Both the position numbers and the translations under genes were made by a program. Positions 18,651-32,569 of a stretch of 35,945 bases of DNA are shown here, piece by piece. Each line of letters begins with the position of its first letter. Positions within the stretch are counted from its first letter, which is position 1. This stretch comes from an uncultured Gammaproteobacteria bacterium (GTDB lineage: Bacteria; Pseudomonadota; Gammaproteobacteria; GCA-001735895): assembly GCA_947260025.1 (NCBI GenBank), contig CAMYON010000019.1:1-35945 (forward strand), written 5' to 3'. The notes under the pieces were generated by a model. That model saw only the letters and a list, made by a program, of their open reading frames with translations. It had not been told where the DNA came from and searched no databases.

Positions 18651-20204
18651 ATGCCCAATACCGATAACGGCGGTCGCGCCAATCGTTCACGTCGCCGCCA
18701 GCGCGCCGGATCTTCGCGTTCGCAGAGCGGCGCGCCGCGCTTGAGCGGTATCGTCGGCGGTCGCTACCAGCCGTTGAACCCGGCGGATCTGCCGCGGCTC
18801 GACCAGGCGGTACGCAAGATTCTGCAGGACGTCGGCATGTCGGAGGCCCCCGATGTTGTGGTCGAGCGCGTTACCGCAGCCGGCGGCAGCCTGGATGACG
18901 ACGGGCGTCTGCACTTCTCGGCCGACCTGATCGAACGAGCGCTCGCAGGCATGCCGCGAGACTTCAGCCTCTGCGGACAGCGTCCCGAACACGACCTGCA
19001 ACTCGGGGGCGGCCGCGTGCATGTCGGTTCCGGCGGCGCCGCGCCGATGGTGCTGGATTTCGAAACCGGCCGCTACCGCGAATCGAATCTGCGTGACCTT
19101 TACGCCGCCGCGCGGCTGGTCGACAGCCTCGAAAATATCCATTTCTTCAGTCGCTCGCTGGTGGCGCGCGACATGCCCGACACGCACAGTCTCGATCTCA
19201 ACACCGCCTATGCCTGTCTGGCGGGCACCAGCAAGCACGTGTTCTCCTCGGTGTCGCTAGCCGCTCATGTCGAGGAAGTCGCCGAGATGTGTTTCGCAAT
19301 TGCGGGCTCGCGAGAGGCGTTCCTGGAACGGCCCTTTCTGTCGCTGAACATCAATCCACCGGTGCCGCCGCTGCGTTTCGATCCCGATTCCTGCGAAGTG
19401 ATGGCCGAAGCGGCGCGGCTGGGTATTCCGCTGCATTCCAATACCTTCGGGCAAATGGGCGCTTCGAGCCCGGTGACGATGGCGGGCACCATCGCCCAGA
19501 CCATCGCCGAAACCCTGTCCGGCATGATCTTCGCGTGGCTGATCAACCCGCAGGCCAGGATCATTTTCGGTACCCGCCCGATGCTGACCGACCTGCGCAC
19601 CGGCGCGATGAGCGGCGGCAGCCCCGAGGGCGCGATCGCGATGGCGGCCAGCGCGCAGATGGCGAGTTATTACGGCTTGCCGAGTTCGACCATTGCCGGC
19701 GCCACCGACAGCAAGATCGCCGATGCGCAGAGCGGCTACGAGAAAAGCCTGGCAATAACCCTGGCGGCGCAGGCCGGTTCCAACCTGATTACACAGGCCG
19801 CCGGTATGCAGGCGAGCCTGATGGGCTGCGCGCTGGAGAGTTACGTTATCGATAACGACATGCTCGGCGGCGTCATGAAATCGCTGAGCGCAATCGAGGT
19901 CAGCGACGAAACGCTCGCGCTCGACGCCATCGACGAAGTGGTGCACGGCGAGGGTCATTTTCTCGGGCGCCCGGAAACGCTGCAACGCATGCAGACCGAC
20001 TTCGTTTATCCGGATATCGGTGACCGTCGCACGATCGACGAATGGCAGGCGGACGGTGGCCGGGATATTCGCGAAGTCGCGCTGGAACGCACCCGGGATA
20101 TCCTGCAACGGCATTACCCACACCACATATCGGTCGAGCTCGATAACGATTTGCGCGAACGATTCGATATTCGCCTGCCGAGATCGGCAATGGAGGCAAT
20201 GTGA
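18651..20204 (+). CDS. trimethylamine methyltransferase (MttB) family homologue, non-pyrrolysine
   Basis: The 517-residue protein belongs to the MttB superfamily (COG5598). Recognisable segments are VHVGSGGAAPMVLDFETGRY, 'SLNINPPVPPLRFD', PLHSNTFGQMGASSPVT and the 'GGSPEGAIAMAASAQMASYY' region. The frame is uninterrupted, with no amber codon, so it is a non-pyrrolysine member; characterised ones demethylate glycine betaine or other quaternary amines and need a corrinoid partner protein. No corrinoid protein or reactivase gene lies nearby. The N-terminal 30 residues are basic (RANRSRRRQRAGSSRSQSG) and probably disordered. The ketopantoate-reductase-like gene overlaps its end by four bases. Function beyond the family is not established. 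Confidence 0.9.
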   Translation: MPNTDNGGRANRSRRRQRAGSSRSQSGAPRLSGIVGGRYQPLNPADLPRLDQAVRKILQDVGMSEAPDVVVERVTAAGGSLDDDGRLHFSADLIERALAGMPRDFSLCGQRPEHDLQLGGGRVHVGSGGAAPMVLDFETGRYRESNLRDLYAAARLVDSLENIHFFSRSLVARDMPDTHSLDLNTAYACLAGTSKHVFSSVSLAAHVEEVAEMCFAIAGSREAFLERPFLSLNINPPVPPLRFDPDSCEVMAEAARLGIPLHSNTFGQMGASSPVTMAGTIAQTIAETLSGMIFAWLINPQARIIFGTRPMLTDLRTGAMSGGSPEGAIAMAASAQMASYYGLPSSTIAGATDSKIADAQSGYEKSLAITLAAQAGSNLITQAAGMQASLMGCALESYVIDNDMLGGVMKSLSAIEVSDETLALDAIDEVVHGEGHFLGRPETLQRMQTDFVYPDIGDRRTIDEWQADGGRDIREVALERTRDILQRHYPHHISVELDNDLRERFDIRLPRSAMEAM

Positions 20205-23102: not shown

Positions 23103-23615
23103 TCAGTCATCGATCGCCTCGAGCACCATTTGCAAATGCGGCTCGTCGTCCCACTCTCGCTTTCCGACGATCTTGTGCACCACGAATCCGTCGCGGTTAA
23201 CGACGAAGGTCATCGGCATGCCAATGACTTGCCAGCTTTGGCTGACGCGACCGCTCTGATCCAGCAAAACCGTAAAATCGATCGGATAATCGGCAGTAAA
23301 CGCCGCGACCGCTGCGCGGTCCTCGCCGACGTTGATCGCAAGCCAGGCTACTGGCTGCTCGAGCAACTTTCTCGCGGCGCGGTTCATCGACGGAAGTTCC
23401 TCGCGGCAGGGGACGCACCAGCTGGCCCAGAAGTTCACCACCAGAACCTTGCCGGCATAATCCGAGAGTCGATGCTCGTTGCGCTCGAGATCGGGCAATG
23501 CAAATGGCGGCGCTTCGGACAGCGATTCGCCCGCATCGACGGCAAGAGCATCGAAAGCCAGCAGCATCGGGAGCAGGCAGCTCAGGCAAAACCTCGATAC
23601 AGGGCCCGGCTTCAC
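23103..23615 (-). CDS. TlpA/ResA-type periplasmic thioredoxin-like protein
   Basis: About 170 residues from the GTG at 23615. It has a signal peptide (basic KPGPVSR then a hydrophobic stretch) and a thioredoxin fold with the active site WASWCVPCREE (Cys67, Cys70 in this numbering). The segment IGMPMTFVVNRDGFVVHKIVG includes the cis-Pro region. Family members reduce haem-binding or copper-site cysteines in the periplasm. The GTG lies seven bases after the SCO1 stop; a TTG at 23639 would overlap SCO1 and is less likely. Last gene of the mtoX unit, so a role in maturing the cytochrome and copper sites of its neighbours is plausible. Confidence 0.85.
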   Translation of the reverse strand: MKPGPVSRFCLSCLLPMLLAFDALAVDAGESLSEAPPFALPDLERNEHRLSDYAGKVLVVNFWASWCVPCREELPSMNRAARKLLEQPVAWLAINVGEDRAAVAAFTADYPIDFTVLLDQSGRVSQSWQVIGMPMTFVVNRDGFVVHKIVGKREWDDEPHLQMVLEAIDD

Positions 23616-23622
23616 GTCGGAA

Positions 23623-24192
23623 TTACCCGCCGGCTGCAATCATATCGCGCAGCAGGTTTTCAATATGCGCCGCGGGGAATCCGAACGGCACGATGGTGCT
23701 TAGTTTGCCGTTCTGGTCGATCACGAACAGGTTCGCCGTGTGGTCCATCGTGTACTGGTTGCTGGAGCGCGAATTTTTCTGGTAAACGACGCGAAACATT
23801 TTTGCAACTTCTGCTATTTGCTGCCGGGTGCCGGTAAGACCCACCAACGCGTTATCGAAATAACTGACGTATTGCGCCAGTACCTCGGGCGTATCGTGGT
23901 CGGGATCGACCGTGACGAACAGGCCGCGCACACGAGTCGAATCCTGGCCCAGGCGTTTCAGTGCCGTGGACATGTGCTGCACCTCGATCGGGCAGACGTC
24001 GGGGCAGAGCGTGTAACCGAAAAAAACCAGCACGATCTTGCCGCGTTGGTCCTGCAAACGAAAGGTCTTGCCGTGATGGTCGGTCAGCGAAAAATCGATT
24101 TCGAGATTGCTCGCACTCGCCGGTACCGGCACGATCGAAATCGACAACGCTAGTACTACCGAGGCAAATGCGACTCGCAGTAACGGAGGCAT
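23623..24192 (-). CDS. SCO1/SenC-type copper chaperone
   Basis: The 189-residue protein has a signal peptide (1-27) and the SCO fold. The copper/thiol motif is C63-PDV-C67-P in FGYTLCPDVCPIEV, and the conserved metal ligand His151 lies in YTMDHTANLFVID. The 'VDPDHDTP' loop is also conserved. SCO proteins carry Cu or act as thiol reductases in assembling copper enzymes. The ATG directly follows the TAA of the SCO-MauG gene (TAAATG), so translation is coupled. Known mtoX loci in methylotrophs contain SCO1 genes, which supports a role in maturing the copper-dependent oxidase encoded upstream. Confidence 0.95.
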   Translation of the reverse strand: MPPLLRVAFASVVLALSISIVPVPASASNLEIDFSLTDHHGKTFRLQDQRGKIVLVFFGYTLCPDVCPIEVQHMSTALKRLGQDSTRVRGLFVTVDPDHDTPEVLAQYVSYFDNALVGLTGTRQQIAEVAKMFRVVYQKNSRSSNQYTMDHTANLFVIDQNGKLSTIVPFGFPAAHIENLLRDMIAAGG

Positions 24193-26136
24193 TTACTGCA
24201 CCTCGACGTCGCTACCGTGTACCCAGGTCGGATCCCCTTTTTTGATATCGCCGATCGGCGCGGCGAAGGCATCGGCCACCAGCGTATCGACATTGCTGCC
24301 GGTCAGGGACTCCAGAAACTGTACCAGGTCATCTTTTTCCCGGGTATCCAGGTCGAGTGGCCTGATCAGCGGCGAGAGTCCCTCGTTGGGCACGCCGCCG
24401 GCGTCATAGAACTCGACCACGTCCAGCAGCCTGCTCAGCGAGCCGTTGTGCATGTAGGGTGCGGTCAGCTCGACGTTGCGCAATCCCGGGGTCTTGTACT
24501 TCCAGCGGTCATGAGGATTCTGCGTCACCTCGTAGAGTCCGACATCGGCTGGGGCAGGCTCGCCGACGCGGTCGATAATGTCGCGATCGATCTCGAGGAC
24601 AACCCCGGGCGCAACCTGTACCAGCTGTTTTTCCGGGCGTATACCCATCGATTCGCGGTAACCGAGGCCGGTGTTGTGCAGCTGGTTATCCATGAACAGC
24701 GCGCTGTCCTTGCCAACCAGGTGGCAGGCAGAGCAGGCCGCCTTGCCGGTGAACAGTTCGAAACCCCGCTGCGCCGATTTCGATAACGCGTCAGGGTCGC
24801 TACCGTAATACCAACGATCGAAAGCCGAGTCGCCCGATACCAGGGCGCGCTGGTAACTGGCGAGCGCGCTGCCGAGGGTCGCCATGGAAACATCGCGGCC
24901 ATCGAAGGCGGCTTCGAATAGGCCGTCATAGTCTTCGATCTGGCGTATCTTGTTGAGCACGTAACCGATCGACGGATTACCCATTTCGTTGTGCGCCAGC
25001 AGCGGACCCCAGATCTGCTGCTCGAGCCGATCTTCGCGACCGTCGTGAAACAGCAGTTCGGCGTAGGCAACGTTATAGATGGTCGGTGAATTGCGTCGCA
25101 CGCTGCGGCCCTCGATACCGACCGCCGTGGCGATTTCGTTGCTGGTAAATCCCTGGTCGGGCACGTGGCACATCGCACAGGAAAAGGTATCGTTCAGCGA
25201 CAGCCGTCGGTCGAAAAAGAGCTTGCGGCCAAGCTCGATTTTAGCTGGGTCGGTAGCCTTGGCGCCCGGCACCGCAGGCAGGCCCAGCGGCGGTGTCTCG
25301 ACGAACTCGAGCAAATCCGCCGGTTTGCCCCGGCGCAGTTCCAGCGCGCGCGAGCGGGTGGTGTAATCCTCGCTGTCGTAGCCGCTCTTGTCGTCGCCGG
25401 GCCCGGTCAGCGGTACTGCCGTCTGGCTCGCCGCAACCTGCAGTTTGATTCCCCGGGATTCCTGTAACAGGGTTTTGAAGTCGTTTAGTATCAGGTCCTG
25501 GTGCAGGAAGGCGACACTGTATATGTTGCGAATCTTCTTTGCCGGATCGATCAGAAAAACCCTGAGCAGGTGGGAATAGGCACCGCTGTAGCGACCCTCA
25601 GCGGTGTATTCGCGCTGGATATCCTGGCTGTAGGAATCGAGTATCGGTGCCAGCTGTTGCTCCGACGCGGTGGTGACGAATCGCCATTCGCCCTGGTCGC
25701 CGGCATACTTAAAATTATTGCCGTAGAGTCTCATGATCTCGGGAGTATCGGTCTCGGGATCGAAACTGAGGCTGATCAGCTTGAGATGCTGCGCGATCTC
25801 GGCATCGCGTTTCATCGCCGCCTTGATCTGGTAAAACACGTGCGACGTCAGCGGGCAACCGTTGACGTCGCTGCAGGTACTGTAGATGAAGGCCAGCAGC
25901 ACGTGGCTGTCGCCGAACAGCTCGTAGAGCCGGCGGGGTTTGCCGTCGCTATCCAGAACCTCGCCGTCGGCGGCATGTCCGAGCGGCGGCAGCGCGTAGC
26001 TGCCCGCGGTGGGCGGTTCGTAACCCAGGTCGCCGTATCCGGGCGCCAGCGCTACCGTTGCCGGCGCCTCGGATTGCGCATGGAGTGGCGCCTGGCACAG
26101 CAGCAAAAACAGAAAAACCGTTAAACGGATACTCAT
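24193..26136 (-). CDS. SCO domain fused to di-haem cytochrome c peroxidase / MauG domain
   Basis: The protein is about 647 residues from the ATG at 26136, which begins a clean signal peptide (MSIRLTVFLFLLLCQAPLHA). Residues about 50-230 are a SCO-like thioredoxin domain whose cysteines are spaced C-x5-C (STCSDVNGCPLTS, Cys88 and Cys94) instead of C-x3-C; the ligand His is probably in AYSHLLRVFLID. Residues about 285-620 are a CcpA/MauG domain with two haem-binding sites (CAMCH at 320-324 and CSACH at 468-472). It also has FHDGREDRLEQQIWGPL and the distal-ligand segment APYMHNGSL. Normally these are separate genes. It follows mtoX and precedes SCO1. The domain order suggests electron or copper delivery for post-translational maturation of the oxidase. 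The exact reaction is unknown. Confidence 0.92.
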   Translation of the reverse strand: MSIRLTVFLFLLLCQAPLHAQSEAPATVALAPGYGDLGYEPPTAGSYALPPLGHAADGEVLDSDGKPRRLYELFGDSHVLLAFIYSTCSDVNGCPLTSHVFYQIKAAMKRDAEIAQHLKLISLSFDPETDTPEIMRLYGNNFKYAGDQGEWRFVTTASEQQLAPILDSYSQDIQREYTAEGRYSGAYSHLLRVFLIDPAKKIRNIYSVAFLHQDLILNDFKTLLQESRGIKLQVAASQTAVPLTGPGDDKSGYDSEDYTTRSRALELRRGKPADLLEFVETPPLGLPAVPGAKATDPAKIELGRKLFFDRRLSLNDTFSCAMCHVPDQGFTSNEIATAVGIEGRSVRRNSPTIYNVAYAELLFHDGREDRLEQQIWGPLLAHNEMGNPSIGYVLNKIRQIEDYDGLFEAAFDGRDVSMATLGSALASYQRALVSGDSAFDRWYYGSDPDALSKSAQRGFELFTGKAACSACHLVGKDSALFMDNQLHNTGLGYRESMGIRPEKQLVQVAPGVVLEIDRDIIDRVGEPAPADVGLYEVTQNPHDRWKYKTPGLRNVELTAPYMHNGSLSRLLDVVEFYDAGGVPNEGLSPLIRPLDLDTREKDDLVQFLESLTGSNVDTLVADAFAAPIGDIKKGDPTWVHGSDVEVQ

Positions 26137-26193
26137 ATCGATCGGCAAAAATGAATCCGGGTCTGGATTATACCGCCCACGAGGCTGCAGGTG

Positions 26194-26221
26194 GCCAGAG
26201 CGGTTGAAAAACCGCCCTGGC
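26194..26221 (-). other. intercistronic hairpin between mtoX and the SCO-MauG gene
   Basis: GCCAG-N-GCGGTT / AACCGC-N-CTGGC, eleven pairs with one mismatch and a four-base loop. It begins 14 bases after the mtoX stop. No T-run follows. A structure here could protect the 3' end of mtoX mRNA or reduce read-through, so that more oxidase is made than maturation protein. Confidence 0.55.
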
Positions 26222-26234
26222 TACCGCGGTTCGA

Positions 26235-27629
26235 TTACTGCAGTACGGATTGCGTCCCGCTGGTCGTGCTCGCCAGTTTCTTCGCCTCGGGCGACTTGCC
26301 GCTGTAGAGCGAGTAGGCGCCAAAACGCATCTGGTGAGGACGACCGAGCTTCATCTCGGTGAAGTCGAGCGCGAACTGCTGTACCAGCTCCTTGCCGTTC
26401 CAGACGTAGCTTTTGAAGTACTGCTCGTTGTCTTCGCCTTTTTTATCCCAGTTGGCGAGCAGCGAGGAGGTGTAATAAACGCGCTTGCCGTCCCAGCTGG
26501 ACGAGGCCATGTTGACCTGCTTACCGATGACTTTTTCGTAAACCTGCTTGGGGTTATGCGGGTCGGTCAGGTCGAAGCGGCGAGTCTTGCCGTCCATGAA
26601 AGTATTGACCCAGAGGTAGCTGTCGTCGGCGCCGATCGAGATATCGACCGGTAGCGGTACCTGGGAGGCATCGCCGACATCGGCGACCGGCTTGGTCTGC
26701 CATTCACCCTGGTCATCCTCGTAGGCGAGCCAGATCTTCGAGGTTAGCGCGGTCGTGGTCAGGCACCAGTTGTTATGCGGCTGCCAGGCGCACCGGATTT
26801 CGAGCGGCGCGCCGGGTACGTCGAAAACTTTTTTCGGCTTCTTGCTGTGCAGGTTCCACAGCACCATGGTATTACCGAAACGTTTCATCGCCTCGGCATC
26901 CTGCAGCATCTTGCCGAAGTCCATCATGTAATTGGACCAGCCGGTAAAAGAAGACGTCAGCATGATGTTGCGTCGCGGCAGCACCCGCACGTCGTAGTTG
27001 TAGCCATCGGCGATTTTACCGCTCTTGACGGCACCCTGCAGGTTATCGTCGGTCGGCATCCAGTGGGTTGCAATATACTCGCCCTCGTTGGTGTATTCGA
27101 CCATCGCGGTGCGCCCGCCATTGTCCTGGTTGTTGGACAGGCCGGTAATCAGCATGCGGCCGGGCAGGGCGTAAGTCGTATGCGGGCCGACTACGCCGCC
27201 ACTCTTCTCGACGAAGTCGGTAATGACCCGGTGCAGCGTCGGCTTGGCCGGGTCGGTCGATACGTCGAAGATGAAAATCTTGTTGGTATCGAGGCCGCCG
27301 GCCCAGAGATACTTGCGATCGTCGGTCAGGCCGGAGTGATGCGCTTCGTTGCGACCACCGACCGATAGCGTCTGCACCACCTGCCCGTAGTTCGACGAAT
27401 TCGGATTGACATCGACCGTGACCAGCTTGTCCTGGCCGTCGCCCAGGCCCTCGACGCCGAGCGTCCAGATGTAAACGAAGTCCTCCTGGCCGACGATCTT
27501 GGCCATGTAGGGTGACATGCAGGTCTCGTCAGCCTGTGCGATCGGCAGCAGGCCGGTAAACGCGGTTAATACCGCGATGGCGAAAGTGTGCAAGCCAAAT
27601 CCGGCTCGCCTGGCTATTGTAGGTTTCAT
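26235..27629 (-). CDS. mtoX: methanethiol oxidase, periplasmic (SELENBP1 family)
   Basis: The 464-residue protein is of the selenium-binding protein 1 / methanethiol oxidase family. MTO converts methanethiol with O2 to formaldehyde, hydrogen sulfide and hydrogen peroxide. It has a signal peptide (about 1-33), then ETCMSPYMAKI, with a conserved Cys. Conserved histidine segments are NEAHHSGLTDD (His97, His98) and VVGPHTTYALPG (His150); histidines of this family are thought to bind copper. Other family segments are YLWAGGLDTNKIFIFDV and 'CAWQPHNNWCLTTTAL'. The start is supported by GGAGGAG seven bases upstream. Full length, no defects. Context (SCO-MauG, SCO1) matches known mtoX loci. Confidence 0.94.
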   Translation of the reverse strand: MKPTIARRAGFGLHTFAIAVLTAFTGLLPIAQADETCMSPYMAKIVGQEDFVYIWTLGVEGLGDGQDKLVTVDVNPNSSNYGQVVQTLSVGGRNEAHHSGLTDDRKYLWAGGLDTNKIFIFDVSTDPAKPTLHRVITDFVEKSGGVVGPHTTYALPGRMLITGLSNNQDNGGRTAMVEYTNEGEYIATHWMPTDDNLQGAVKSGKIADGYNYDVRVLPRRNIMLTSSFTGWSNYMMDFGKMLQDAEAMKRFGNTMVLWNLHSKKPKKVFDVPGAPLEIRCAWQPHNNWCLTTTALTSKIWLAYEDDQGEWQTKPVADVGDASQVPLPVDISIGADDSYLWVNTFMDGKTRRFDLTDPHNPKQVYEKVIGKQVNMASSSWDGKRVYYTSSLLANWDKKGEDNEQYFKSYVWNGKELVQQFALDFTEMKLGRPHQMRFGAYSLYSGKSPEAKKLASTTSGTQSVLQ

Positions 27630-27887: not shown

Positions 27888-28346
27888 ATGGATAAAATCG
27901 ACCAAAAGATTATCTCCGAGCTGCAGCGTGACGGGCGCCTGACCAACCACGAACTCAGCGAACGAGTGTCGCTATCGCCGTCGCCGTGCCTGCGCCGCCT
28001 GCGTCAACTCGAGCGAGATGGCGTGATCGAGGGTTATACGGCGCTGGTAAACCAGGAAGCCTGTGGCCTGCATATCACCGCCTTCGTTTCGATCCGGCTG
28101 GAAAAGCAAAATGACAAAACCATCCAGGCCTTTGAAAACGGAATCCGCAACCTCGACGAAATCGTCGCCTGCTACCTGATGTCCGGTTCATCCGATTACC
28201 TGTTGCATGTGCTGAGCGCTTCACTAAAGGATTATGAAATCTTTATTCGCGACAAGCTGTCCCGTACGCCGGGGATCGGTACGCTCGAAACGCACTTCGC
28301 CTTCGGCCAGGTCAAACGCAGTACGGTTTTTCCGGGTTTCGATTGA
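27888..28346 (+). CDS. Lrp/AsnC-family transcriptional regulator
   Basis: The 152-residue protein has the usual two parts. The N-terminal HTH begins MDKIDQKIISELQRDGRLT and continues HELSERVSLSPSPCLRRLRQL (recognition helix about 30-40). The C-terminal RAM effector/oligomer domain runs at about 65-145 (ITAFVSIRLEKQ, VACYLMSGSSDYLLHVLS). It is divergent from mtoX with 258 bases between starts, so it is the natural candidate to control mtoX. Family members usually sense amino acids; if it regulates mtoX its ligand might be a sulfur amino acid or related compound. That is speculation. Confidence 0.92.
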   Translation: MDKIDQKIISELQRDGRLTNHELSERVSLSPSPCLRRLRQLERDGVIEGYTALVNQEACGLHITAFVSIRLEKQNDKTIQAFENGIRNLDEIVACYLMSGSSDYLLHVLSASLKDYEIFIRDKLSRTPGIGTLETHFAFGQVKRSTVFPGFD

Positions 28347-30061: not shown

Positions 30062-30273
30062 CAACCGTCGACGCTGAATCGAGAAAATGTCCTCAGGCCA
30101 GCGTTACGCACAAGGTGGGGATGCAAACCATTCGCTCGGTCACGGTTAATCATTGCTGCAGCCTCGTAATCCCGATATTGCCGGATTAAGTATCGAAATT
30201 TGAAGAATAGGATTAATATTTGCGGCATCACAAAGCCGTTGAGCACGGAAAACAGCATTAGAAGGTGAGCAAG

Positions 30274-31311
30274 ATGAAATTTCAGTTAGCAATCAATCTC
30301 GAGCGCATGGACGACAGCAAGGATATGAACGACGTCGCCAGGCATACGCTGGGAATGGTGCAGATGGCCGACCAGGCCGGCTTCAAGATTGCCTGGGCCG
30401 CGGAACATCATGCGCTGGAAATGACCATAGCGCCGAACCCGTTTCAGATTCTGACCTGGTGGGCTGGCCATACCGATAACATTCGCCTGGGGACCGCGGT
30501 TGCGGTAGCGGCGTACTGGCATCCGATCAACCTCGCGGGCGAGGCTGCGATGACCGACCTTATCAGCGGCGGCCGCCTCGAATTCGGCATCGGTTCCGGT
30601 GCCTATCAGCGCGAGTTCGATCGCATGCATCCGGGGCTCAAGCAATCCGATGCCTACAAACACATGCACGAAATGTTGCCAGCACTGAAGGCGCTGTGGG
30701 CCGGGGACTACGAGCACAACGGCGAGTTCTGGTCGTTTCCGACCGCGACCTCGGTGCCGAAACCGGTGCAGAAGCCGCACCCGCCGATCTGGATCGCGGC
30801 GCGCTCTCCGATCACCTTCGATTACGCGATCGAGAATAATTGCCATGTCATGTCGTGGCCGTTGACGCGCCCTTTTGCCGAGGCCGAGCTGTACAAATCC
30901 CAACTCGACGAGGCGATTGCGGCTCATCCGGGTGCCGATCGTCCCACATTTGCGCTGATGCGCCATACCGCGCTGTACGAAGACGCCGCCGGACGAGACG
31001 CCGCGATCAGGTCGATCCAGACGGTCCTGGGTCAGTTCGAAAACCTGTTTCGCAACCTCGGTGACGTCAATAACGGATTCCCGCGGCAAATTCCGCTGGA
31101 AGAGCTCACCGACCGGGAACAGTACAACGCAGAAATGCTCGAGGAAAACCTGATGTTCGGTTCGCCTGACGAGGTGATCGCGAAGCTGAAACGCTACGAG
31201 GCCCTGGGCGTCGATGAATTCATCTATTACGCCAGCATGGGGCTCGGACAGGCAGAGCAGAAACGTTCGCTGGAGCTATTCTGTTCAGAGGTTATGCCAG
31301 CGTTTGCCTGA
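30274..31311 (+). CDS. luciferase-like (LLM) flavin-dependent oxidoreductase
   Basis: The 345-residue protein has the bacterial-luciferase-like TIM barrel. Segments are FKIAWAAEHHALEM, NIRLGTAVAVAAYWHPINL, 'GGRLEFGIGSGAYQREFDRM' and HPPIWIAARSP. Members use FMNH2 (or F420) with O2 to oxidise small substrates. I start it at the ATG at 30274 with GAAGGTGAG upstream; a GTG at 30265 adds three residues. Length and motifs place it with the general LuxA-like group, not the longer NtaA/DmoA (dimethylsulfide monooxygenase) group. A separate flavin reductase gene is not present nearby. Confidence 0.9.
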   Translation: MKFQLAINLERMDDSKDMNDVARHTLGMVQMADQAGFKIAWAAEHHALEMTIAPNPFQILTWWAGHTDNIRLGTAVAVAAYWHPINLAGEAAMTDLISGGRLEFGIGSGAYQREFDRMHPGLKQSDAYKHMHEMLPALKALWAGDYEHNGEFWSFPTATSVPKPVQKPHPPIWIAARSPITFDYAIENNCHVMSWPLTRPFAEAELYKSQLDEAIAAHPGADRPTFALMRHTALYEDAAGRDAAIRSIQTVLGQFENLFRNLGDVNNGFPRQIPLEELTDREQYNAEMLEENLMFGSPDEVIAKLKRYEALGVDEFIYYASMGLGQAEQKRSLELFCSEVMPAFA

Positions 31312-31414: not shown

Positions 31415-32569
31415 ATGACACAATATTCCGCTAGTCACCCGGATCCGATGTTTCGCAAAACCCTGCGCTCGATCAGGGGCAGAGATTACGAACAGGGCTT
31501 TTCCCTTCCCGGGACATTTTATACCGACCCGACCTGGACGCAGACCGAATGCGATGAACTTTTCCTGCGAGACTGGTTCTGCGTCGGACGCGTCGAAGAG
31601 GTCGGCAAGCCGGGCGACTTTTTCAGTTTCGACCATGTCGGCCAACCGATACTGGTGGTTCACGGCCACGACGGTGTGATTCGCGCACTCGCTAACGTCT
31701 GCCGGCACCGCGGCACCGTAGTGGCCTCCGGCAGTGGCAATACCCGGAAATTTCTCTGTCCTTATCACCACTGGGCCTACGACACCACGGGGCAGTTGCT
31801 GAACGCCCCGCACATGGAGTCTCACCAGGCCTTCGACATCAAAAACTGCCGGCTCAAGGAATTAAGCAGCGAGACCTGGCAAGGATTCATATTCGTCAAT
31901 CTGAATCCGCGGCCGGCGAACCTTAAAAAGGAACTGGCGCCGTTGGAAAAAATAATACGGAATTATCACCTCGAGGAGATGTCGCTGCGCTATCTGGCGG
32001 ACGAAGTTTGGGATACCAACTGGAAGTGTCTGCTGGAAAATTTCATGGAAGGTTATCACTTGACTCCGCTGCACCGGGACACCCTGCACAAGGTCAATCC
32101 GAGCCGCCTGTGTAGCCACCTGAAACCGGGTAAGCGCCATTTCGGCTACAGCGTGGGTTTTACCTCGCGGCTGCCCGACGATCGTATCGGCCATCCGGAC
32201 CTGTCCGAGCAAGAGATGGATACCTGCGTCATGTTCGCCATGCCGCCCGGGCTCACCGTTGGCATCGGCAGCGATTACAGCTCTTTCCTTTGCCTGCGCC
32301 CGTTGTCTCCGTCCCGGGTCAGCGTCAAGCTGGGCCTGATCTTTCATGGCGATCACTGGTCGCAGCAGGAGGTCGATAACGCAATCGAGCTATTCCAGCA
32401 CACCATGGAAGAAGACAAGCAGGTTCTATTGCGGGTGCAGCAGGGGCTGGGTTCGCGGTTTCACCAGCCGGGACCGCTGGCGTCACGCGATCTCGAAGGC
32501 ACTATCTGGGACTTTTACCAGTACCTGAGCCGCAACCTGGGTGCGGTTAAGAAGGTGGTGAAAAGTTGA
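31415..32569 (+). CDS. Rieske non-haem iron oxygenase, alpha subunit
   Basis: The 384-residue protein has an N-terminal Rieske [2Fe-2S] centre with Cys96-x-His98 (NVCRHRGTVV) and Cys115-xx-His118 (FLCPYHHWAY). The C-terminal catalytic domain has the mononuclear-iron motif in LLENFMEGYHLTPLHRDT (His215 and His220). The third ligand, an Asp, is not certain. Such proteins hydroxylate aromatics or demethylate quaternary amines (the GbcA/CntA/stachydrine type). The general layout, including the FMEGYH-LTPLH segment, fits the demethylase-like subgroup, but this is tentative. GAGGGG precedes the ATG. No reductase or ferredoxin gene is adjacent, so electrons must come from elsewhere. Confidence 0.9.
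   Translation: MTQYSASHPDPMFRKTLRSIRGRDYEQGFSLPGTFYTDPTWTQTECDELFLRDWFCVGRVEEVGKPGDFFSFDHVGQPILVVHGHDGVIRALANVCRHRGTVVASGSGNTRKFLCPYHHWAYDTTGQLLNAPHMESHQAFDIKNCRLKELSSETWQGFIFVNLNPRPANLKKELAPLEKIIRNYHLEEMSLRYLADEVWDTNWKCLLENFMEGYHLTPLHRDTLHKVNPSRLCSHLKPGKRHFGYSVGFTSRLPDDRIGHPDLSEQEMDTCVMFAMPPGLTVGIGSDYSSFLCLRPLSPSRVSVKLGLIFHGDHWSQQEVDNAIELFQHTMEEDKQVLLRVQQGLGSRFHQPGPLASRDLEGTIWDFYQYLSRNLGAVKKVVKS

Follow-up and report, generated by a model that had tools for sequence, protein, structure and literature searches.

A SCO-MauG fusion encoded beside methanethiol oxidase: a probable maturation factor with an altered inter-haem position

How does methanethiol oxidase (MTO), a periplasmic enzyme acting on a gas that matters in the marine sulfur cycle, acquire its copper and any further cofactor? 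The question is raised by a gene cluster at positions 23103-27629 of a 35,945-nucleotide stretch of DNA from an uncultured gammaproteobacterium (contig CAMYON010000019.1), which we call the window. The cluster is real: it encodes MTO (MtoX, the product of mtoX) and proteins that are thought to mature it, among them a single chain that joins a SCO domain to a di-haem MauG-type domain. We consider it rather probable that this fusion acts in the periplasm as a dedicated factor for the copper and oxidative maturation of MtoX. Both the fusion and a gene order much like this one have already been published by Eyice et al. 2018 (PMC5739008; 2017/18) and Kröber & Schäfer 2019 (PMC6548844). Thus, the window is a further member and its locus is no unusual discovery, and the idea that the fusion, noticed in a preliminary description of the same DNA, is new had to be given up. 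Two points were not found in print, which is weak evidence for their being new: the MauG-like partner of MtoX lacks the inter-haem tryptophan of MauG but has a new tryptophan, and residues specific to the MauG-linked clade of MtoX may be better targets of oxidation than the tryptophan pair proposed so far.

All four genes are encoded on the minus strand, which the preliminary description did not mention, and the complete mtoX locus that it described is confirmed: mtoX (26235..27629), the SCO-MauG fusion (24193..26136; 647 residues from the ATG, with an alternative TTG start at 26148), a canonical SCO1 (23623..24192), and a TlpA/ResA-like thioredoxin (23103..23639). MtoX belongs to the SBP56 superfamily (PF05694) and reaches 778.3 bits with the NCBIfam equivalog NF052453, above the cut-off of 650; its N-terminal leader, like the leader peptide of the fusion, was judged by eye. 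The fusion is one open frame containing a SCO1/SenC domain (residues 61-201, 25534..25956; PF02630, 47 bits at a cut-off of 22.8) and a CCP_MauG domain (residues 297-446, 24799..25248; PF03150, 165.6 bits). The separate SCO1 has the C-x3-C motif CPDVC and 164.7 bits with PF02630, and the thioredoxin (WCVPC) is recognised by PF00578/PF08534 and obtains 110.8 bits with NF002854, under the cut-off of 170. The gap from mtoX to the fusion is 98 bases. The tight coupling that had been noticed behind the fusion is also there: its stop codon TAA (24195-24193) abuts the ATG of SCO1 at 24192, and seven bases lie between the stop codon of SCO1 and the GTG at 23615. This GTG is the likely start of the TlpA-like gene, which mechanical calling of open reading frames had moved out to a TTG at 23639, overlapping SCO1.

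The haem domain accompanies MtoX across genomes. In an even sample of the phylum (398 genomes), MtoX is present in five genomes and the haem domain, searched with the fusion at E<=1e-80, in the same five, about 1 kb downstream of mtoX. The weakest of these five matches has an E-value of 2.4e-90, and the next matches in the sample are another copy belonging to one of these five genomes (2.5e-71) and a match in genome G334 (2.1e-69). Among 149 genomes forming part of a larger family, that of G205, MtoX and the haem domain were found in the same four, two of which are shared with the phylum five. Nine of 95 relatives, the window included, encode an MtoX above the cut-off, and all nine loci have adjoining SCO and MauG domains. 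Taken together, 15 of 15 distinct MtoX genomes have the haem domain close by, the SCO domain having been searched in all but G522 and G564. In the 29 of the 398 genomes that encode only SBP56 proteins of the other type, the search, with at most three candidates scored per genome, gave no haem domain at E<=1e-60; G410, with a 1,972-residue frame and two short matches, was left out of this count. From all sources we assembled 43 loci of one class, with a class cut set by ourselves at 45% identity and E<1e-80. An mtoX gene is contained in 38 of them, and four of the other five loci, all four being fusions, are from genomes that encode elsewhere an SBP56 protein with 744-772 bits against the MtoX of the window. 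The idea that the fusion occurs mostly away from mtoX, which would have refuted the preliminary description, can therefore be rejected.

SCO and MauG share one frame in 23 of the 43 class loci, and for this reason an assembly artefact is rejected as the origin of the fusion; the 23 include one locus interrupted by a frameshift (L021) and two cut by contig ends (L004 and L052). The other 20 loci are not fused, and a SCO domain with the C-x5-C motif was not recognised in three of these, namely L029, L044, and L055, the last of which is truncated by the end of its contig. By parsimony the fused/split state changed six times, and at least two of the changes are forced by well-supported branches. 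This repeated joining or splitting suggests that both proteins have one shared client.

The loci vary in further ways. In L024 (9764-13135) another MauG belonging to this class, encoded on its own, comes after the SCO-MauG fusion, and then a TlpA. In L049, L054, L055, and L056 the mauG gene is not located downstream of mtoX but divergent from it, and also from SCO where the contig shows this. The frameshift of L021 (2555-4431, genome G068) lies inside the haem domain of the fusion in that assembly, and the class member of L029 (8881-10101, genome G334) is placed between a PqiA gene and a gene for a ribosomal-protein-S4-like protein.

To place the haem domain we aligned 106 domains, 43 of the class and 63 of an outgroup, dropping matches of less than 200 residues, L004 among them. 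The outgroup was taken for the most part from a scan in which at least 579 relatives were cut down to the best 80, and the two patterns used in that scan lie outside the columns compared here. In a tree from a short search, in which the broken L021 and the cut L052 were left out and 20 of the 63 outgroup rows were used, the mtoX-linked haem domains form their own clade, with 41 rows on one side of a branch with an SH-aLRT support of 100. The curated models do not assign the domain to a characterised enzyme: it obtains 196.8 bits with the MauG model TIGR03791 (cut-off 443.85) and 229.2 bits with the MbnH model TIGR04039 (cut-off 362.85), and is therefore rejected as MauG or MbnH by these models. 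Among solved structures, MbnH (6e1c) matches it best both in sequence and in fold. Two predicted structure models have mean pLDDT values of 84.2 and 79.0, and the arrangement of the domains in the fusion is unsure (pTM 0.59).

The domain retains much of what characterises MauG. Two CxxCH haem motifs are found at residues 320-324, within the CCP_MauG segment 24799..25248, and at residues 468-472 (24721-24735). Gln374, Pro378, and Glu384 correspond to the pocket residues Gln103, Pro107, and Glu113 of MauG with identical spacing, and Glu is present at the position of Glu384 in 42 of the 43 class rows. Tyr577 (24406..24408) is aligned with Tyr294, a haem ligand of MauG, and every one of the 42 class rows with a letter in this column has Tyr. 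The class does not have the Met ligand that the high-potential haem of the Met-His type of cytochrome c peroxidases has. Because the outgroup also has mostly Tyr here (Tyr 56, Met 2, Leu 2, Phe 2, and His 1 of 63), this residue separates the class from the Met-type peroxidases but not from nearer kin.

The difference to MauG concerns the position between the haems. The column of MauG Trp93, anchored by a DGR motif together with Gln at +10, Pro at +14, and Glu at +20, contains His in 37, Leu in three, Val in one, and Gln in one of the 43 class rows, a gap in one, and Trp in none, versus Trp in 56, Leu in three, His in two, Ser in one, and Arg in one of the 63 outgroup rows, the MauG of Methylobacterium being among those with Trp. 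In the window this residue is His364 (25045..25047). Twelve residues further, between the positions of Gln103 and Pro107 of MauG, the fusion has Trp376 (25009..25011), and Trp occupies this column in 36 of 42 class rows and in none of the 63 outgroup rows. Both contrasts are traits of a clade and therefore represent few evolutionary events. One of the two outgroup rows with His is L058, which is outside the class cut (43% identity) and is placed among the outgroup rows by the tree; its genome encodes MtoX at another location. Together with L066 and L070, which have Leu at this position, L058 belongs to a separate methanotroph/Cycloclasticus group of MauG-like proteins without the inter-haem Trp. 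The corresponding Trp of MbnH could not be placed safely, its W aligning one column off, and the surface residue Trp199 of MauG found no placement in the alignment and was dropped.

The inter-haem Trp of MauG is reported to be required for the formation of tryptophan tryptophylquinone (TTQ), and in BthA, which has Ser at this position, the bis-Fe(IV) state is still formed (PMC6405878). Given BthA, the loss of the Trp is compatible with high-valent chemistry, but the route taken by MauG cannot be assumed. The preliminary description had proposed a role in MTO maturation, possibly with a cofactor formed from side chains as MauG does; the role stands as the likeliest reading, and the analogy to MauG has become doubtful as the clade lacks this Trp. 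We did not find the absence reported in the open-licence literature, which is weak evidence. A look-up of single terms found neither Trp93 nor Tyr294 nor CXXXC in the excerpts of PMC5739008, and neither tryptophan nor heme nor CXXXC in those of PMC6548844.

Alternatively, the haem domain could serve as a peroxidase and clear away the H2O2 that MtoX produces in the periplasm, with the SCO domain only supplying copper. H2O2 production has been reported for MTO (PMC5739008, PMC6548844, PMC10362175), the fold of the domain is within the di-haem peroxidases, and BthA, with a Tyr ligand and without an inter-haem Trp, still turns over H2O2 (PMC6405878). However, the class has Tyr throughout where the Met-His peroxidases have Met, it lacks the inter-haem Trp of the characterised peroxidases (PMC6405878), and the MTO of Ruegeria pomeroyi made in Escherichia coli released no detectable H2O2 (PMC10936201). 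In addition, fusion to a copper chaperone would suit assembly better than detoxification. We therefore regard a peroxidase as unlikely, although it is the alternative that survives best.

If the haem domain oxidises MtoX, which residues could be its targets? Eyice et al. proposed four copper histidines and a TTQ formed from conserved tryptophans for MTO (PMC5739008). The MtoX of the window has all four histidines, His97-His98 (27336..27341), which are conserved in MtoX and other SBP56 proteins, H150 (27180-27182), and H432 (26334-26336). It also has the published TTQ candidates W231 (26937..26939; PMC10936201, PMC5739008) and W394 (26448-26450; PMC10936201), which are Trp223 and Trp386 in R. 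pomeroyi MTO. We compared 43 MtoX with 33 other SBP56 proteins, after dropping seven loci that duplicate longer ones. W231 is present in 100% of the MtoX and 97% of the others, and W394 in 100% and 85%, respectively. Because the pair is also conserved in SBP56 proteins that do not have this MauG class, and E. coli-made human SELENBP1 shows activity with copper (PMC10362175), the pair fails to explain the link to MauG and why a MauG is needed. Eyice et al. took the conservation of these tryptophans across all three domains of life as support for the TTQ (PMC5739008); our own reading is the opposite.

The comparison instead points to other residues. W55 (27465-27467) is found in 43 of 43 MtoX and 1 of 33 other SBP56 proteins, Y234 (26928..26930) in 43 of 43 and none of 33, and W340 (26610-26612) in 42 of 43 and 1 of 33, with Tyr in 32 of the 33 others. 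W109, W379, and W410 likewise occur in MtoX but seldom or not at all in the other SBP56 proteins. Cys37 is present in 41 of 43 and none of 33, and R. pomeroyi MTO requires the equivalent residue for its activity (PMC10936201). By their distribution these seven residues are better candidates for the link to MauG than the TTQ pair, but candidates only: the contrasts are differences between clades and by themselves no sign of modification. Judged from the N-terminal peptide DETXNSPF of Hyphomicrobium MTO (PMC5739008), the mature MtoX of the window is expected to start at D34. A sequence search gave no solved structure of a MauG-linked MtoX, the single match at E<=0.001 being 2ece from Sulfolobus.

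The SCO domain of the fusion has Cys88-x5-Cys94 and the downstream copper histidine His189, and not the C-x3-C of SCO1/SenC. The preliminary description was right about this spacing but mistaken in regarding it as unusual for the chimera. All 40 SCO domains recovered in the class, fused or split, have the motif C-x-[DE]-x-x-G-C-P, which rules it out as a peculiarity of the fusion, and all 40 keep the copper-type Cys/Cys/His set in the alignment. A survey of 11 mtoX genomes resulted in 52 SCO matches. Eleven of these, one per genome, are linked to mtoX and have C-x5-C, 38 other SCO-type frames (two of them weak-scoring) have C-x3-C, two are TlpA-like CxxC proteins, and one is without hit. The C-x5-C motif thus marks the SCO partner of MtoX, be it fused or not.

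This spacing, unlike that of the 38 other frames, together with the specificity of Cys37 for MtoX and its requirement in R. pomeroyi could also mean that the SCO domain is not a copper chaperone but a thiol oxidoreductase guarding Cys37, with TlpA as reductant and the haem part being secondary. We think this quite improbable, given that the copper-set histidine is kept in 40 of 40 domains and that TlpA was recognised in just 11 of the 43 class loci, some of which are short. It is hard to believe that the haem domain accepts electrons from copper-loaded MtoX or from the SCO domain and in this way connects methanethiol oxidation to the respiratory chain: co-occurrence and the shared locus would fit this, but purified MTO consumes O2 directly (PMC5739008), the O2/methanethiol ratio of 0.75 of the native enzyme lends no support as its authors blame traces of catalase (PMC5739008), and the peroxide pocket conserved around Glu384 would be superfluous.

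The reading of the fusion as a maturation factor is supported by the co-occurrence of MtoX and haem domain, the full support of the clade, the retained pocket and Tyr ligand, and the invariant Cys/Cys/His set. It is further supported by Methylophaga thiooxydans, in which both fusion genes and both MTOs are induced on dimethylsulfide (PMC6548844), and by the activities of native and E. coli-made MTO. Native Hyphomicrobium MTO has about 16 umol/mg/min (PMC5739008). R. pomeroyi MTO expressed by itself in E. coli consumed 77 uM (PMC10936201); using the 30 min and 0.3 mg/ml given in the methods of that study, we calculated 0.0086 umol/mg/min, approximately 1,900-fold less. This gap fits a need for maturation, but it spans different enzymes, laboratories, and tags, and the lack of copper alone could account for it. 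In such a maturation the SCO domain, with its Cys-x5-Cys and His, would deliver or handle copper and/or thiol redox for apo-MtoX, and the di-haem domain would use H2O2 to oxidise one or more MtoX side chains, by an inter-haem route that may differ from that of MauG in using His364/Trp376 in place of Trp93. The likeliest targets would be the residues specific to the MauG-linked MtoX clade and not the widely shared tryptophan pair.

Several observations weigh against this role. SELENBP1 needs copper but is active when made in E. coli, R. pomeroyi MTO made in the same host retains some activity (PMC10936201), and the very Trp needed by MauG for TTQ formation is absent from the clade. For the fusion, the literature excerpts revealed neither a modified residue nor a complex nor a mutant phenotype. 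Genome G334 contains a member of the clade (L029) but no SBP56 match, and L029 and L044 have no SCO domain of this type within the 19-21 kb examined. Moreover, the haem-domain search in the phylum scored at most three candidates per genome, so that the absences there are not complete.

Altogether, the observations of the preliminary description are confirmed and its interpretation is partly supported. It could even be possible that the mtoX-linked di-haem domains are a distinct class of protein-oxidising enzymes in which oxidising power passes between the haems through His364 and a relocated Trp376 instead of the MauG Trp, that the same client receives its copper from the fused C-x5-C SCO domain, and that an aromatic residue peculiar to periplasmic MtoX, such as W55, Y234, or W340, and not W231/W394, becomes a protein-derived cofactor or copper ligand that other SBP56 proteins lack. 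We put this forward tentatively, as a doubtful extension. A partner enzyme without the residue held essential in MauG makes the chemistry of maturation directly testable.

Several further genes are located nearby. An Lrp/AsnC-type regulator (27888-28346, plus strand) is divergent from mtoX with a gap of 258 bases; in R. pomeroyi the place upstream of mtoX is held by an IclR regulator. At 18651-20204 (plus strand), at a distance of about 6 kb to mtoX, a single open frame uninterrupted by any in-frame stop encodes a protein of the MTTB (trimethylamine methyltransferase) family. On the other side, a luciferase-like monooxygenase (30265-31311, plus strand) is followed by the alpha subunit of a Rieske ring-hydroxylating oxygenase (31415-32569, plus strand).

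The closest known relatives are found in M. thiooxydans, in which mtoX lies in two clusters together with genes for a SCO1-MauG fusion and a SCO/TlpA-like protein; the same role has been proposed there, and both fusions have predicted signal peptides (PMC6548844). As in the published cases, SCO and MauG form one chain directly after mtoX in the window. In contrast to M. thiooxydans as described in print, the fusion of the window is followed by a canonical SCO1 and a TlpA as two separate proteins. The split SCO and MauG of R. pomeroyi (SPOA0270-0271) have 48% identity over 84% of the window fusion and share its C-x5-C, the His at the inter-haem position, and the Tyr ligand, but they are two genes with Val at the position of Trp376. 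Hyphomicrobium sp. VS has a split arrangement like that of R. pomeroyi, known here from the description in PMC5739008 alone. The MauG of Paracoccus and Methylobacterium, which synthesises TTQ, resembles the fusion in its two c-haems, Tyr ligand, Gln/Pro/Glu pocket, and fold, and is distinguished from it by the inter-haem Trp, for which the fusion has His, and by a curated model whose cut-off of 443.85 bits the fusion does not reach. The MauG-like MbnH, an enzyme of copper homeostasis, is linked to copper by the title of its structure (PDB 6e1c); its chain is shorter (388 residues), and the fusion is likewise under the cut-off of its model. BthA of Burkholderia (PDB 6nx0) has the Tyr ligand and no inter-haem Trp (Ser257; PMC6405878); it is the weaker sequence match and is encoded downstream of a putative phosphatase, its partner being unknown (PMC6405878).

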